From Astropecten irregularis (taxonomy: Eukaryota; Echinodermata; Asteroidea; Paxillosida; Astropectinidae): a stretch of 64,000 nucleotides of DNA. The number at the start of each line of letters is the position of its first letter. Position 1 is the first letter of the stretch. The stretch is taken from positions 8,990,001-9,054,000 of the forward strand of contig OZ020254.1 in assembly GCA_963971285.1 (NCBI GenBank). Direction: 5' to 3'. The position numbers were made by a program, and so were the translations under genes. Below the pieces are notes generated by a model. It did no database searches and was not told where the DNA came from. It was given only the letters and a program-made list of their open reading frames with translations. Of the stretch, positions 480-21,400 are shown one piece after another.

Positions 480-3400
480 CTGTTGATATGAACACACACA
501 AACAAAAAACAGCATTAATAATAATAATAATTTGGGACGCTAATAATCCTTACTCGCAGCTGGGGTGCTGAATTGCGAAGGATGTGGGTACAACAACGAG
601 TAGCAGGCTTTCATGGGCGCCCTTGGCTGCCAGCCAAATCAACCCATATATGATCACGGAGCACAGCCTAAGATCGAAAGTATTTGATTTTTGTGGAGGG
701 AGGAAAACCCGAGAACCCGGAGAAAAAACCTTGGAGCATAGGAGAGAACCAACGCACAACTCTACTCACATATGACCCAAACTGGGATCAAACCCGGGCC
801 ACATTGGTGAGAGGTGAGTCCTAACACACTTGCCACCTAAGCCTCTGTAATGCGTACATACTGTACGAGTTTGCCGAAGGATTTCGGCATGATGCTCATT
901 ACATATTGCAAGGGATTAAAACTAACAAGATTTGACACACAAAAAACAATGAATGTCAAAATCTGATCCATTATACAGCAGTACCTGATGGTAGATAAAC
1001 ATCTCTCGCTTGTATTCTTCTGTTTTTCAAGAGCTTTTTCGATAAAACTGTTAACCATTTGGGGGCTTTGGTTTCCTCCAAACTGATGGGTCTGAAAGCA
1101 GTTACCAAATTGAAACGGCTCAAAACAATGGTAGACTTTTGACTAACCATTGTTAACCTCAAGAGGGCGCCATTCACTGTTCTTCGGATTAAAATTGCAC
1201 AGACATAAATAACCCATAGACCGACAGCGCCCTATTCAAATGCATGGCGGGGTACCGTAATTGTGACGGCACCCGACTATTGCAAAACTATGGGCAAAAA
1301 GAGTTACTTTTACGCACGATTGAATAGAGAGGATTGATTCAAATGGGAAATTCTAGATGAAAACGAATTGGTATCAACTTTAAACCCATTGGAGCATTAG
1401 GCTTACCTCACATACTATTGCACAGTAATATATTTTTCTCAAATAATGGAAAGATTGAATGAAAACTTTTGTGTTTGAAATGTCATCTTGAGAGGGAACT
1501 AGCGCGAGATTACGTGCGCAACTGGCCTCTTTTAGAAACTGTGCGAGATTTTGAAATAAAATCAATTGTTTACGTGCGGCGCGCGCGCCTCGCGTACTGA
1601 GTGACGCGCACTTTGCCCATAGTTTTTTGAGATGGCGTCCGTTTTCAAAATTACGCCCTCTGCTGTCGGTCTATGGGTTATTTATGTCTATGTAAAATTG
1701 GCCTAAAAGTTAAAGAAGCTAAAAGTTAATTGTAAATGTCCTGAATTTAATGTTCACCTCATTATTTGACAAAGCGTGTACAAAAGTTTTCAGGAGAACG
1801 GTAGTTTGCTGCCCTCTATCGACAGCCCGCTCCAAAAGTCTCCCATGATAACCGTATAATAATCAGAGGAAGGCCACAGGAGGATGGCCAGAGTTTTTTA
1901 TTTTTATTGTCATGAAGGAATGCCCTGCTTTTACCTTCTGTCGGATGACCAATTTGTAGATGTTGCGCGTGAACATGGAGCTGGCTGAGAGAATCGAGGA
2001 ATCGGCCGAAGACATGACGGCGGCCGACACGGCCCCCAGACCGATGAAGGACACGACCTGTGGGGTCAAGTACTGAATGACCAACGGCAGTAAAAGGCTG
2101 GTTTGATTATACGGGTTTGTCTTCTCCAGATTCAGGCTTGTGGCATTCCAATCTGCAGAGAGAGAGAGAGAGAGAGAACAGTTATACAGAGATGACAACT
2201 GATCAGAGTCAAGACACAATTTGTCTTAGTGTCCGTGTGGCATCGACAGTGCTATTTTATTTTGTATATTATCATGATTATCATGACTCAACATCATCAT
2301 TGTTGCATTTTACAGGGCATATTTATAGTGATCAATGTCCCTTTCACCTGAAGTTCTACTCCAAATGTACGTTCATTTCAGCATGACATTAATGGTGCAA
2401 CTGAAGCTGCATGGATGCCACATAAACAAACCGTGCTCTGACTTGGTTGGACTAATTAGTGGCCTAAGGGGCAATCGCTAAAATTGCGCCCCTAATTACT
2501 CTACCTTCTGATGCCAATGACAAAAGTAAATCAGACAATTTGAAATTGAAATTTTTCTTTCTTTGTTCAAACTTCATCTGATTAGATTTCCAATAACTTC
2601 AACAGAACAGTTCCTTTTTTGCGGCCCCCCCCCCCCTAAAAAGTGGCGCCCAGGGATCGCCACAGCATAAACTTTGAGCGATTAAACTCAATCGACATGT
2701 GCGGAATATAGTGCTGTCTTTTTCAAAGCGGTGTCCGGTTTTCAAAAGCTCCGAAAATGCACAGCACTATCCTAGAGAACCACATTGCTTAGCAATTAAG
2801 ACTGATTCACAATTTATTAGATTCTTCTTCAGTGCTTCTACTGCTTCATGAAGTCGACCACAGGCATTGACAGGTCCAGAAAAGCCAATAATCAACAGCA
2901 AGAGGTCAACAAATCTAATCAAGTTTAAAAGGGAATGAAAATAAAAAAAAGAAAAAGAAAAAAGAAAACGGCAAGAGAGAACTGAAGTGGGAAACAGAAC
3001 AACTTTGTCTCACCTGTACTCGCTCCGATAGCACCAATGAGAATTGAAGGGATGGCCATTGAAATGCATCCAATGGCAGCAACAAAAGACAAAGCTTGAG
3101 CCCTCTCTGCCGTCTTGGAGGAGAGCACACGCTGGAAGTACACTTGCCATGGTATACCACCAAACACCTGCCAGACAAAACAAACGCCAATTAATAGAAG
3201 ATAGTAATAAACTGCTGCAAACTGCTCATCAGCCAAAACATTTATCAAATGCTTGGATTAAGGAGGGCCTGACGCATTTTAATCCTTGAAGGATCTTTTC
3301 AGCCTTGAGAAAGATCCTGCTAGGATCAAAACGCGTCAGGGCCTTCTAACTCCAAGCAATTAATAGAGGATTAGTTTCCTTTTCGACTTCTGACAGTTTA

Positions 3401-12400: not shown

Positions 12401-15400
12401 ACTTCGTATCAATCAAGCAAAGTGAGACTCTAATCTTCTGATAATGAACTTCTGTCTATTCCTACTTGGTCAAAATCTTTCAGAGATCTATTATTTTCTA
12501 AAGCTGGTTCCAAACTGTGGAACTCTATCCCCATCAACATTAGGAATGCTCTTTCTGTCACGATATTCAGGAAACGACTTCAAACATTTTTCTTCTCGTA
12601 AACCGTGTCTTTGTCTTTTTGTTTGTCTGAATATTTTGTACAGCCCTTTGATCTTTTTGTAAAGGCACTTTATAAATTATGCCCGTTAATCATTTATCAT
12701 TGTTGCAGTGCCATGCTGAGATATGAAATTTTGATGTTCTGAAACAAGACAATGAATAATGAGAAATCGGTGATGAAAAAAAAAACAAAGGAAAAAGTTT
12801 TAATTATGAGAGAAACAAGTTTGATAAAGATCCTACTAGGATTGTAACGGCAGGCCCTCCAAACTTCACGTAATTTTAACAAATTGCAGTACATACTTAT
12901 TTAGTTGTATCCAGGTAAATAGAGCAATAGCACTCCACACTGGGCTATAATGAGCTATAAACGGACGCTCAAAAAAAATGACGTCACTCGACTACCACAC
13001 AGGATCTCGGACGAGATGTGTCAAATTTAGCAAAGTATCCACACACATCTCTCTCAACACAACAAATACAAACACACTTGCCAGACAGCCAAGTATTATT
13101 TTCTAATTAAAAGTGACGTCAAAGATAGTGGAGGAGGGGAGGGGTGGGGGGGGGGGGCAATATTGAATGATCTCATTTACCAAATCATTCCAGGAAATGA
13201 TGGATATAGTGTAATATGAAGCTCTTTCACACTGTCTGTGTCAATGTCAACACGGTCATTTCGTTGGTCAGTAACCGCCCGCTAAACTTCCTTTTTTTTT
13301 CTTCATTTCCGCATTTAATAATAAAACCACTTCCTTTGTAATACTCCTCTGACTTTAATAAGGAAAGTGATGTCACTGTGTGAGATCACTAATATCCATT
13401 ATAAAATCTAGGGAGTCCATTGGCCAGGGGGGAATAACGTAACCATATAGCCGGGCTATAGCTGCTATGGAGATTTGACGTAATATACCACAGACGCGTT
13501 GGTGTGGGCTGGCCGAGTGCACTATTGGTTTGCAACATCCAATTAGGTAAACCACATTAGCTGTGCGTGTGCGGTGGCTTCACTCTCCGCAGCCAATGAA
13601 ATTATCCAAATTGTTTCACTGAGATGTAGTCAATGGGTGAGGCCAGGCATTGGGGGTGGGAGGAGGGGGGGGATGTGGGGGAGGGGGGGGGGGGGGGGCT
13701 TCTGAACTGACACTCCCTGTGGGCCTCAAATTTTAGCTGGCAATCAAGACAACCGAGCTACAGACATGTACCATACACACCGAGGGCAGAAATACCCATC
13801 TAGCTCAAAGTTTCTACGTACATTACGGCTCGATTTCACCATTCACGGAGCTTTCTCATTTATCGTGCTATTTTATTTTCATCAGTTGTCAGTATCGCCA
13901 CGGTAATTTGTGACATTTGCTAGGCAATTAGAGTTAATGTGCATTTTAAGCTCATTCTTGCCGAACGGTCAAGCGGTGAGGATTTCACATTGATATAAAA
14001 CAAAATGGAAAGAAAATCAACTACTGTACTATTACTATCAAACTCACACAAAGCTGGGTGGCACTGGACTTGCGCACGGTTTATCAGATACAGAAAAACC
14101 AGTCCCTCCAATTGTAGCATTTTAACAGATGGACTTGGGCAAAAACAGTTAGAACACCATCATCAGGCCAGCAATATTTGTCACTGGATATCACAAAATA
14201 AACCTTAACTTGGTCCACCTTTAATTTTATAAGTGCATGAAAAAGAACACGTTCACCTGTTTATATAGGAATCTATCACTCCACACACCTGTATCAAGAC
14301 AGCACAAGGACATCTCAGTATATAGGAAGAACATCTCCAATGTTCAGTAATTTGGATTGTGAAAAATTATTTATTTAAAGGTAATATCATACTTTGGTGT
14401 TTGTCAAAGAAATGCAGATTCATGGGCAAAACTAAGGAAGAAACAGGAACAGTCATCTGTGTATTTTCCAGTCCCATACGGTGCCCAATTGTTGGGAAAA
14501 CAGTGAAAAACGGCCACAGTGTTTTAAAAATAATTTCTTTAAAAGATCAAAATTGCCTTTGTTCATTGGTTTTACTCTTTTCTGGATAAAAACAGCATTT
14601 CAGGCAGATAAATTGTAACGGTATGTTTCTACTATCACCATCTTTATATCCTGTAAGTTATAAAAAACTGTAACCATTTCTCTTTCGGTATGCTACCAAA
14701 GTATGATACTTTGAATAGTACCTAATATTATACCTTTAAAGGTACAGTTATACATGTACCCCTATACTAATAGGTGTAATACATCTGAACAAAAACTGAA
14801 TTTAAAAGCCTAGCTGATAAAAAGATAACAATACCAGTAAACAACAAATTGTAGCCAGCTAAAATAATAAACAGCGTACAAAAGCAGTTGGTTTCCACTG
14901 TGTACAAGGAGGCACTATTAAAATTACAACCACCATGCTTTATCTGCTAGCTCTGACCATATGGATTTAGCGTCCTCATAAAGTGGGAACCGTATGGTGC
15001 TGGAAATTTCATAGATAACTATTTCTATATCTTTCTTGATATTTTTGCCCATGAATCTGCATTTCTAAAACAAAACCCAACATATGAAGCTACCTTTAGG
15101 TTTGGCCTCTGTTTGACAACAAGATGGCATTATTGTACTGGCAAAATGAAATGTACATGTACATGTACATTTATAACTTGTTAAATTGTCTTCGTTCACA
15201 CCAAACTGTAAAAAGAAAAAACATCCTGAAAGAAACAAAACACAAGCAAAACCAAAAAAAAACAAAAAAAACCAAAGATAATAATCGCAGCGAAGGTGTT
15301 CAAAAAATGGATCGGGATTATTATTTCTTTAAGGGTATTAGAACCACGCCAATATTAAACAAATACTGGATAACGTTGTGATATGGGTAGTGTGCGTCGT

Positions 15401-18400
15401 GTGCACAAACACCCACTAAAACTAACCAAACACCCACAAGTAATCAAAACAGCAGGTCACTATTTGAAACAAGACACTGAGGGGAGCCGGGGAATTCTAA
15501 ACGGTTTTCACAGCTCGGGACTTGCAGGCCAAGTGAAATTCCCGTACTTTAATCTTCATGTCCATGTCCTCCCAAAGGGTATCCACACACACAAAATGAT
15601 AAGCCACGCCACGCCATGCCAAGAGAAAAGGGATGGACAACTGGTAAATAGGCCCCCGGGTTTTTTTTGAAATGCTAACCGAGCTAGACCAAGCGTAGTT
15701 GTGCCGTTGTCCAAGCGATGCTAGCTTTGCAGTCACAAGTGGATCGCTAAGGAGATATCTTAGTCGGGATACTTTGGTCTAGAGGGACAAAGAACGAGTA
15801 ATACCAAATGCAGATTATTTGCATATTCCCACTTGGAACTAGACTCTTGTACAGCGTTACAAGAGTGAACACATAATCTGTATATATGTTTATTGTAAAT
15901 CATCCAAGACACATTTTGGATAAGGCATACATTTGCTGCAGACTGCTTGACAACCGAAATGCTAATAAAATGCAGAGAGGACCTGACATTTTATTTGTAA
16001 CAGAATCTCTCTCAAATGCTTTTTATTTCAATTTTTGATCAAAACATTTTGATAAAAACAAATGTTGTGTGGCTTGCGCTTGTTGATGGTATGTGTACAA
16101 ATGTAATAGTCAACTCACATATCATTCCCAAGTTGGGGGGAAGATCTATCAACTAGAATTATAAGCATGGCAAAGTTTCGCTTAATAACAAAAACAGGTA
16201 ACCGACCAAAACTGCATGCACTGTACATATTGCTTGTGACTGGTTCCCAGCTTAAGTTTGCTGAGCAGTTTGTTTTTGCTAAGAAGCTCTGTCACATACA
16301 CATGGAAGATACTGCCCTAGTTGAATAATGAATAGTGAAGTTGCCCATGCTGTCGCAACTCTATACATGGCTACGTGCAGAGCGTACATCAGAATTTTGT
16401 GGCGTGTCTTTGGACTTTCATTATAGGGCACGCATTAGAACGTTTAATGCGCGTCAAAATCTCCCTTTGGCCAGGTTCTGCGAGATGATAAAAGAGAACA
16501 GCAAGTCTGAGAGATAGGGAGAGGGTGATGCAATCTGTTATATATCTGTAAGTGTTACCACACGCTGCAATGAGTGTGCAGTGAAACGGGAGGGAAAAGC
16601 TAGGGGGTTGGGGGAGTAAGGAGGGGGGTTGTCTGACAAGTGGGCCAAGCAGAATCAATGTTCTTTCTTCAGACTGACCGCTACTTCGGGATGTAGGCCA
16701 CAAAATGGGTCGAGAGAAATTGCGTGAACGACTACCATTCAACCTGTCCGAGTCAAAAACACATGTACACAACTGGAAGGTTGAGACAACACATGTACAC
16801 AACTGGAAGGTTGAGACAAAACAGTTAAAATGACAAAATGTATATTTGAAAGGAAGTATCTCAAAATCTAAATATATCTCCCCCATTGCCAATCCTACCA
16901 TGAATATTAAATAATTCACAATTGAGAGAATATTTCCTGTATGATAATGAAGTCATACTAATACAAATTTATCCCATCCCTAGGGTACATTTTGTTTTTC
17001 ATTTCTGGAAATCTTAAATGATTTTGCACTTTGGATCTCATTTTTTTTTTGCTTGGATAAGATCGATGAGCAATTTTTTTCCCTTCTTCTTTCTAATAAA
17101 CACTCTAGAGTATTTAATCCTGTCCCCCTACCCTAATCAAATTAGGTAAAAACCGATGACATCTTAAGCGGGTGAGTGAACCGCATTAGGTGAGAGAACC
17201 TTTCCTTGGTAGTGCACTGTTGGTTATTCCGTCTCCGGGACAGAAACCTTCAATGGCATTTTTTTTTTTTTTTTACCTTATTTGTCCAAGAAGATTTAAT
17301 TCAATTTTTTTTCACCCCAATCCAATTTGGGAAGGATGATTAATTATCATGAAGGGATAATAGGAACTGAGACAGAATTGTGAATGCTGGATTCTGAGCA
17401 GACTAATGGAAAATATTGGAAAGAGCGCTCGGGCTGCTCAGCAGGCAGACAACATTTCCAGACATGAGATGTATTTGAATTCCTTGAATTTGAATTTATT
17501 TAATAGTTCATGTGTACACAAGCATAATCGCAAACAAACAACATTCCGATCCAATCTGATTTGTTTTAAGATGATGAAAATCACTTAAACTTAGACAATT
17601 TTTTTTTTTTTCAAATCTCAGCATTTTTGAAAGACAATGCATTCAATTTGAAAAATTCGGATTCTATTTGACTTAAATCATATGCGTAATACTGTACCAC
17701 GGCCACTTTGACAGGCCCTAATTCCGAAACGACTTGGAGTTGAAATTTTTACTTTTGCATATGTTCATTATACATATAGATGATTGTTAGAAATGAATTT
17801 CAGCCAAATCGGAGAGGTGACCCGCAGCCCCATTGGTTGATTTGACATGGAATGAGTGACCCAAACACATATTTCAAATTGTCCAAAGTGATCGACTCAA
17901 AAGTGCAAAAATTACACATATATCAATTTTTAACATATCTCCATTAACTGTCAAATCAGAATTTCCTTAGCAATATCAGCATAACAACGTGTCAACTTTC
18001 ATATGGTTGTACAGGAATGAAAAACAAACAAATTCTGGCCATTATTTATTCCAGTCCACCAAACAAAACTGAAAAACAGCCAGGAATAAACACCTTGGGA
18101 GCCGTGACATAAAAAACACCTTCCCCTGGAGAGAATGTGCTGGAAAGAAGACCAGACTGTTATTTTTTCGTTATCATGCTTATTTGTCAGATTCAACACT
18201 CATCACTTCACTATCCCCTCTTGAACAATCCAAGAGGGAGAAGTGCAAGGGTGCAAGGGGTAGAGGAGGGGGAGGGATGGAGGAGGAGGGATGGATGGGG
18301 AAGGCTTTAGAATGTAATGGGATCTTTTCCTAATAAGATGACTGTTGGGTCATTCCATGTCAAATCAACCAAATTTTTGAAATGTTCCCAGGTGACCCTC

Positions 18401-21400
18401 TCAGATTTACTTGAAACTTGTTAAAATGTTCCACTATGGCCAAAATGAACACAAACAAAAAATTAACTTCATACTCCTTATCGTTTCCGAGATACAGACA
18501 TTTGAAATTTGCTCAAAACCCCCCTTTTTTAGCTCCGCCCACCTGGCCGGGTCGCGAAAACGCGTCATCATGCTTTTTTCCCAACTTTGAGAGCCCATAA
18601 CTTGATAACGGTAACAGCTACAGAGCTGGAAATTTGTATTCTTACTAACATTTGGCCCTAGATTCATAATCTGGCCTTAAATAGTAGATATTATGTCTGC
18701 ATTTCAAGTTACTTGCCCCTAAAATACACACTTTATTCTTGCCGGGAGTGATTTGAATAATTTTTGGGGTCACCCTGTGACCTCATCAGGGGTCACATGG
18801 ATCCCAAATTTCAGATAAATCATCTATAGGTGCATTTCTATCACCAAAATCAAATAGGACCAAAACAATCCATTTCTAAAGGATTGGCAATCATCCAAAT
18901 TTGGGTTCAGGTTAAAAAAAATCATAAAAGACCACAAAAGAGCCTTTCCGTCATGCGAGTGGTTCCCCCTGTGGACAGTTAACAAAATATTTTAAACTTT
19001 TAGTATTTAAACATGTACATTATATCTACTTACAAACCAAATTTCAGCTTTGGTACTCAACTCCTTCATGGTTAGGTTGCATTTTGAAAATTACACAGTT
19101 TTTCATGGTTTTCAATGATTTGACATACTTGCATGCACTATAAATGACCTAATTAACACACACAAGTGTCATAATTCATAAATGTATAACATTTAAATAC
19201 ATTTGTCTTCTTTATTGGACAAATTCAAGGTGATTTGTAGTTGTTAATATTGTATTGACTTGATTATCCTGATGCTGAAACATGAAATTGTTACAACAAA
19301 GAGTTTGACACAGACAAATCTTCAACAGATGAGGACTGCGATCTCATGAACACCTCACATGACTCTCTTAACACCAGCTCCTCATTGCTTGGGTGTTCTC
19401 CTCTCAAACCAGTCAGTCAGCGAGATAAAATTAGTTATGGCAATAGAAAAGTCAGAGAAATACATTCTGCACTAACAGCAAAGGTAGCAGAAGTCCTGGA
19501 TGTGTCAACAGAAGAATTACCGACTGCAGATATTAAGAAACTTTGTGACAAGTGTCAAGAGTCTCAAGACCTTGACATATTTGTTAAACTTAAAAAGACA
19601 AGTGTTGTAATGCCTCACAAAAAGAGAAAATGAAGCTACTTTCTCTTGTACCATCAAGCTGGACTATCAAGAAGACAATGGAGGAGTTCCAAGTTTCTCA
19701 ACATATGGTTAAGAGAGCATGGGCTGATAAAAACATCAAGGGCATCAAGTTCTTTTATGTAAAGCAATGGTGATGTGAAATCTAATGCAGATAAGTACAA
19801 GCTGGCTAATAGATTCCTCTCATCAAAGACTATATCAGGTACTAGATCACATCATAGTTTTGTTCCTGTGGCTGATGGGAAGAGGCAAATTAAGATGCGA
19901 CGACTCTCTGATGACGTTGATTACAGTATCGTTTCCATTGGAGATGATGCAGAAATAGATCATCAACATACTGATGCAACAGAGTACCAACCAGGTCGAT
20001 ACATTGCATGCATATATGACAATGAATGGTACATTGGCACCATAGTTGAGAGATCCGAGGAACAAAATGATGTCTTTGTGAAGTTCATGAGAAGAGCTAA
20101 GAAGTCAAATACACTCTCCTGGCCACACGACTCCTGCAGTGAGTGTTGGATACCATTTCAAGATGTGATATGTACTATCAGTGCTCCAGAACTGCAGGGA
20201 CGAGGGGGCCGCCAGTACACATTATCTAAAGCAGACTTCAATGACATTCAAGCCAACCTACCAGCATTTATTAAGTAAACCACTGCAACTAACAACATCT
20301 ATGCAGTATTCTGAAAGCAAGTTGCTAGAATATGGTAATTTTGTTGAATGCCTGGATCTAAAGTCACTTTTATATTTCCGAAAATGTGAAAAACTGTGTA
20401 ATTTTCAAAATGCAACCTAACCATGAAGGAGTTGAGTACCAAAGCTGAAATTTGGTTTGTAAGTAGATATAATGTACATGTTTAAATACTGAAAGTTTGA
20501 AATATTTAGTTAACTGTCCACAGGGGAACCACTCGCATGACGGAAAGGCTCGTTTGTGGTCTTTTATGATTTTTTTCCACCTGATCCCAAATTTGGATGA
20601 TTGCCAATCCTTTAGAAATGGATTGTTTTGGTCCTATTTGATTTATGTGATAGAAATGCACCTATAGATGATTTATCTGAGATTTGGGATCCATGTGACC
20701 CCTGATGAGGTCGCAGGGTGACCCCAAAAATCATTCAAATCACTCCCGGCAAGAATAAAGTGTGTATTTTAGGGGCAAGTAACTTGAAATGCAGACATAA
20801 TATCTACTATTTAAGGCCAAATGATGAATCTAGGGCCAAATGTTAGTAAGAATACAAATTTCCAGCCTGATAGCTGTTTCCGTTATCAAGTTATGGCCTC
20901 TCAAAGTTGGAAAAAAAGCACGATTACGCGTTTTCGTGACTCGGCCGGGTGGGCGGAGCTAAAAAAGGGGGGTTTTGAGCAAATTTCAAATGACTGTATC
21001 TCGGAAACGATAAGGAGTATGAAGTTAATTTTTTGTTTGTATCCATTTTGGCCATAGTGGAACATTATGACAAAGTTTCAAGTAAATCTGAGAGGGTCAC
21101 CTGGGGACCTCTGGTTGATTTGAAATGGAATGACCCTGTTGTCTCTGGATCCGGTTGTTTGCTTCCATAGCTCAGTCGTCACCAGACATGAAAATGCCGT
21201 TCTATAAAGACGGAGACGACTGCAAACGCAAAACTATATATATATATATTCAAGGGAAAATGGCCAAGAGAGTTTTTGTGCTAGTTGCCATGGAAACATG
21301 GCCCTAAAATCAAGCGACGGGCGGATTGTGCTATTGTCCATTCATAAAATTAAAGCCAATAAAACATTTTCAAGTTGAAAGAAACTTAAGTGCTGCACGT

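Follow-up and report, generated by a model that had tools for sequence, protein, structure and literature searches.

A non-autonomous transposon family with long terminal inverted repeats, most likely of the Sola superfamily, in the genome of Astropecten irregularis

Introduction

Sola elements, according to the portion of a recent review that bears on them, encode a DDD transposase, generate 4-bp target site duplications (TSDs), carry terminal inverted repeats (TIRs) of 11–1,124 bp and are mostly 2–9 kb in size (PMC10741241). In the part of a report on slime moulds used here, the 4-bp duplications of Sola2 are AT-rich and its TIRs span just 12–21 bp (PMC3627910). Long TIRs such as those described below are also found in the Mutator-like elements (excerpts of PMC6446971) and in Galileo, a Drosophila element of the P superfamily that likewise forms a graded series of defective copies (excerpts of PMC4168063).

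Here, we analysed a 64,000-nucleotide stretch of the genome of Astropecten irregularis (the window; G000:C18:8990001-9054000) that contains a 2,790-bp element at positions 18347–21136. An earlier note, which described a transposon with long TIRs and a protein lacking its centre, proved right in these respects and had left the superfamily unassigned. Our analysis indicates that this element is most likely a cut-and-paste DNA transposon of the Sola superfamily that carries an internal deletion and is non-autonomous. The long TIRs of the window element (750–759 bp) differ from the short ones of slime-mould Sola2, and its catalytic region, which a Sola element would encode, is absent.

Structure of the element in the window

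The element and its parts are located in the window as follows.

18343..18346, left target site duplication, TGTT
18347..19105, plus strand, left TIR, 759 bp, tip GGGTCATTCCATGTCAAATCAACCA
19346..19716, plus strand, N-terminal piece of the transposase, reading frame broken in the window copy
19716..19717, plus strand, junction of the internal deletion, common to eight copies
19717..20278, plus strand, C-terminal piece of the transposase, with a 167-aa open frame at 19775–20278
20387..21136, minus strand, right TIR, 750 bp
21137..21140, right target site duplication, TGTT

The termini of the window copy are GGGTCATTCC...GGAATGACCC, and the outer ends given in the earlier note were correct to the base. 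The left arm and the inverted right arm are 94.2% identical over 761 columns when gaps are counted, which is far above the threshold of ∼80% over 700 bp that had been set beforehand for the claimed inverted arms, and 95.9% identical over 748 columns when gaps are excluded. A repeat search of the window split the arms into four blocks of 95–98% identity each, and the outermost 25 bp of the two arms are 96% identical. When the flanks of the window copy were joined and searched against the host genome for an empty site, the joined sequence matched its own two halves only. The window element is a real and well-preserved member of a non-autonomous transposon family of a known kind.

Copies and target site duplications

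A DNA search of the host genome (475.7 Mb in 168 contigs) yielded 157 matches, and 40 of the 154 candidates were scored, so that the copy numbers given here are lower bounds. The family numbers two dozen or more closely similar copies, and we examined 22 that retain both ends, confirming the expectation that both ends would recur elsewhere. These comprise 6 copies of the window type (type A) and 16 of another type (type B), and they range from 2,408 to 5,428 bp in length, some of the long ones containing inserts. The insert in L009 reads like the end of a putative non-LTR reverse transcriptase, as judged from its open frame.

Tabulation of the target duplications, which the earlier note had proposed, revealed an exact 4-bp duplication in 19 of the 22 copies, and the duplicated sequences mostly differ from each other. 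The exceptions are L013, L020, whose duplication is mismatched at one of the four bases, and L026, which is rearranged. The A+T content of the 19 duplications (76 bases) is 79%, compared with 64% for flanking sequence from 18 of the copies (p = 0.008), and a strict AWWT pattern is absent from them. The spread of the copies by segmental duplication or recombination instead of transposition is highly improbable, because exact duplications in these 19 copies stand beside flanks that differ over the 20 bases compared. What speaks for such a process is a group of five one-armed fragments on contig C11 (at G000:C11 7076095, 7098514, 7121906, 8304102 and 8332011; three of them lie in L029–L031), all of which span the same part of the element, positions 1607–2790. 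This pattern suggests the duplication of one fragment on that contig.

Two types of internal deletion

The transposase of the family was compared with that of a sister family in the same genome. The sister protein is encoded by two elements, on contigs C15 and C10, which are 98.8% identical over 3.46 kb. The element on C15 (L075 plus L063) is 3,889 bp long, is flanked by the duplication CTAT and carries arms of ∼477 bp that are 96.7% identical; its tip, GGGTCATTCCATATCAGACC, is nearly that of the window family. Between the proteins of the two families, sequence identity is 49–50% over 105 core residues, 46–64% in local matches of type B copies and 40–42% in a multiple alignment.

Type A is represented by eight copies, namely the window copy, L032–L035 and the partial copies L026, L027 and L011. 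In these copies, positions 942–1370 of the element run directly into position 1371. The spacing of the flanking parts is 83 bp in type A (element positions 1248–1373 and 1456–1569) versus 1,391 bp in the sister element (1762–1887 and 3278–3391), indicating that, compared with the sister element, ∼1.3 kb including the whole catalytic region is gone. The lost part contains all three putative catalytic aspartates, and the N- and C-terminal pieces of the protein are fused, as expected from the earlier description of a protein without its centre. The N-terminal piece contains a 42-aa stretch that is 48% identical to the sister protein and reaches approximately position 19719 of the window. The C-terminal piece shows a weak resemblance to the BRWD/PHIP ancillary domain (E = 0.0017, below the cut-off of Pfam), and an AlphaFold model of its 167 amino acids, built with no alignment, was poor (mean pLDDT, 45).

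The 16 type B copies (L009, L010 and L012–L025) consist of positions 1–941, followed by material that is missing from type A and then by position 1371 onward (1445 in L015). As seen in the aligned copies L016 and L017, type B lacks the N-terminal part of the protein and the first aspartate and keeps the second and third aspartates. In 15 of the 16 copies, similarity to the sister protein (493 residues) begins at residue 313 or beyond, past the first aspartate. In a search with the catalytic core, in which all 83 candidates were scored, matches of >80% identity were obtained at 15 loci, all of which are type B (L015 gave none). Thus, no complete copy that could serve as a master element was found in the assembly.

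Of the six type A copies examined for duplications, five possess one together with both ends. Therefore, the crippled form has itself multiplied. In both types, the junction is common to several separately duplicated sites, so that multiplication took place after the deletion and, as we infer, required an enzyme from elsewhere. Thus, the window copy was probably moved by a transposase supplied in trans.

These features most likely reflect the following course of events. A full-length ancestor would have encoded a DDD-type transposase, and its catalytic region would have been lost by a deletion, possibly through gap repair, that left both long arms in place. The transposase of another element may then have recognized the outer ends, excised the element and inserted it elsewhere with 4-bp target duplications, presumably by cut-and-paste chemistry. 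Copies bearing the type A junction reached at least five sites with their own duplications and number eight overall. The ∼4–5% divergence between the arms was already present before this spread, and stretches may occasionally have been copied from arm to arm, perhaps in gap repair after excision. A more specific version, which we put forward tentatively and consider improbable as a whole, is that the two crippled forms replaced the complete element, that both were spread by the ∼50% identical sister transposase recognizing only the shared tip of ∼16–32 bp and that the 750-bp arms stay similar through conversion of one arm by the other.

Superfamily assignment

In an alignment of six proteins of the host genome, including two from the window family, all six share two invariant aspartates, and a third, upstream aspartate is present in all four proteins that reach its position. 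The glutamate near the last aspartate varies among the six proteins. We read the three aspartates as a putative DDD triad; this is a reading rather than a result, because the four proteins that extend to this region also share a glutamate three residues downstream of the first aspartate.

The assignment to Sola is based on the 4-bp duplications, the three conserved aspartates and the size range of the TIRs. The exact 4-bp duplications in 19 of the 22 copies agree with the published description of Sola, and the TIRs and lengths of both the window element (750–759 bp in 2,790 bp) and the sister element (∼477 bp in 3,889 bp) are within the range given in the portion of the review cited above (PMC10741241). 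The 22 two-ended copies, at 2.4–5.4 kb with inserts in some of them, are also comparable to Sola elements in size. The family is therefore placed by described features and not by homology, at the level of Sola as a whole with Sola1 and Sola2 not separated. We hold this assignment to be likely rather than nearly certain.

Several other superfamilies share individual features with the window family. Galileo and the Mutator-like elements were set apart by their descriptions, and Pfam scans matched no transposase family. The target duplications of Galileo are longer than 4 bp. Ginger elements generate a 4-bp duplication and have TGT...ACA ends, whereas the ends found here are GGGTCATTCC...GGAATGACCC. 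Kolobok elements resemble the family as DDD/E transposons that generate 4-bp duplications and begin with purines (5'-RR), but they target TTAA, which is the sequence of none of the 19 duplications. The duplications of Mutator-like elements are 7–12 bp in the review excerpt (PMC10741241), in contrast to 4 bp in the present family.

It is unlikely that the element, while of the same non-autonomous kind, falls into a different DDE/D superfamily that generates 4-bp duplications, perhaps one without a name. This alternative is favoured by the outcome of the database searches. No Pfam model scored above its cut-off with three pieces of window-family proteins and four further proteins, and a sequence search of the PDB gave no match to the sister protein. 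Moreover, the link to Sola consists of the duplication length, the aspartates and the TIR range in the cited part of the review, not of homology. However, those published features of Sola, as given there, that could be tested agree with the family (PMC10741241). A search of viral contigs with the sister protein gave no useful name; in literature searches, the tip sequence retrieved no transposon paper among the matches listed, and five peptide motifs were not found. We retain Sola as the most likely superfamily.

Divergence of and exchange between the arms

The arms of the 22 copies were compared with each other in a gap-excluded alignment. Mean identity between arms of different copies is 98.15% for left versus left (231 pairs), 97.49% for right versus right (231 pairs) and 95.30% for left versus right (462 pairs), whereas the left and right arms of the same copy have a mean identity of 95.44% (22 copies; 93–97% in each of them). 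A wider alignment that runs into the interior (1,117 columns, 40 sites) gave similar values (98.1, 97.8 and 95.0% for left–left, right–right and left–right comparisons, respectively). Because left and right arms within a copy are scarcely more similar than those taken from different copies, the divergence between left and right arms predates the spread of the family.

At 26 arm-specific sites, which were selected from the same copies as were scored, the other arm's letter appears in 71 of 1,087 cells from 21 copies, and a third letter appears in 8. L026, whose right arm is broken, was excluded from this count; its inclusion gives 77 switched and 8 third-letter cells. The switched sites are clustered: runs of three or more occur nine times, whereas 2,000 column shuffles produced 0.78 such runs on average and never more than 4. 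Elsewhere in the arms, transitions (113) and transversions (130) are about even, so that chance changes should have yielded more third letters than were seen. As far as can be judged from the sequences, this pattern points to the occasional copying of stretches between arms, for which gap repair would be a possible route. The switched runs common to L012 and L018 and to L020 and L021 were probably inherited. Single switched sites could represent shared ancestral variation, an explanation that hardly suits the extended runs of L009 and L023. In the 22-copy alignment, the window copy itself has two switched sites. The 26 sites in 21 copies provide a natural record of exchange between arms, which could be used to test how long inverted repeats stay alike; apart from this record, we regard the family as an ordinary non-autonomous transposon family.

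Significance of the long arms

The arm length is not unusual for this lineage or for Sola elements, contrary to what had been supposed: arms in this lineage measure from ∼477 to ∼900 bp, and the cited part of the review gives 11–1,124 bp for Sola TIRs (PMC10741241). The proposal that the whole arm is needed for mobilization also finds no support, since the outer ∼32 bp alone are alike between this family and its sister and a search allowing up to 7 mismatches revealed no further occurrence of the tip inside. Searches at E values of up to 1 matched the DNA of the two families in the tip (32 bp at 81% and 23 bp at 87% identity) and in one 15-bp piece, and the likeness of their arms is limited to the outer ∼32 bp. 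Long TIRs thus recur in the Sola-like lineage, though the arms of the two compared families share the tip alone at the DNA level.

We consider it quite unlikely that the long arms are functional, either as arrays of transposase sites or as the source of a hairpin transcript giving rise to small RNAs that silence the family, although such functions would be compatible with our preferred explanation. The 93–97% identity between the arms within each of the 22 copies argues for a function, as does the number of 9-mer near-repeats in the left arm, which at 206 is above all 100 shuffles (mean, 134; sd, 20) and leaves room for scattered short sites. In addition, the long TIRs of Mutator-like elements are linked to siRNAs and contain promoters, according to excerpts of the relevant paper (PMC6446971). 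On the other hand, the arms of the sister family are alike over the outer ∼32 bp only, the 24-bp tip does not recur internally at up to 7 mismatches and the longer near-repeats are not clearly above the shuffles, as 6 of 100 shuffles attain the observed number of 11-mers and 7 of 100 that of 13-mers. The tip is the likely, putative recognition site, and we take the long arm to be a trait that may simply be carried along, with the element itself being the internally deleted, probably trans-mobilized transposon described above.

Elements sharing the tip

In the genome, 165 occurrences of the 16-base tip GGGTCATTCCATRTCA were counted (83 + 82), whereas the same pattern read backwards does not occur. 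Among 100 listed places, there are 29 convergent pairs of tips within 15 kb, and 12 of these pairs are copies of the window family. Three elements picked by their tips (L077–L079) have arms of ∼600–900 bp that are 88–98% identical and resemble those of the sister family, and they are flanked by the duplications ATGT, ATAT and ATAA. Long arms are present in every two-ended, tip-bearing element that we examined (the 22 copies, the element on C15 and L077–L079), with the right arm of L026 being broken. A candidate tip pair at C14:16083626-16083783 would run counter to a general rule, as its 158 bp are too short for long arms. Two convergent tip pairs, at G000:C10:4808814-4823414 and C9:13138562-13149999, are 14.6 and 11.4 kb apart; each may represent a large cargo-bearing element or have arisen by chance.

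Several further repeats were observed. At G000:C3:403348-427037, seven matches to the related transposase follow each other in steps of ∼3,841 bp, a spacing that suggests a transposon fragment repeated in tandem. L028, L036, L037 and L038 belong to another inverted-repeat family, whose arms of at least 570 bp are ∼93% identical and whose ends lie beyond the stretches analysed; pieces of this family, including its interior, are ∼76–82% identical to the arm of the window element. Within the window, positions 17806–17855 (minus strand) contain, in inverted orientation, 23 nucleotides that fully match the element's tip region, and the 50 nucleotides are 74% identical to its right end. Judged by this likeness, the stretch is a putative additional terminus, more diverged, belonging to a related element; its outermost bases differ from GGG, and a partner end was not found. 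The window also contains an inverted repeat of ∼118 nucleotides with 77% identity, at positions 14376–14490 and 14981–15098.
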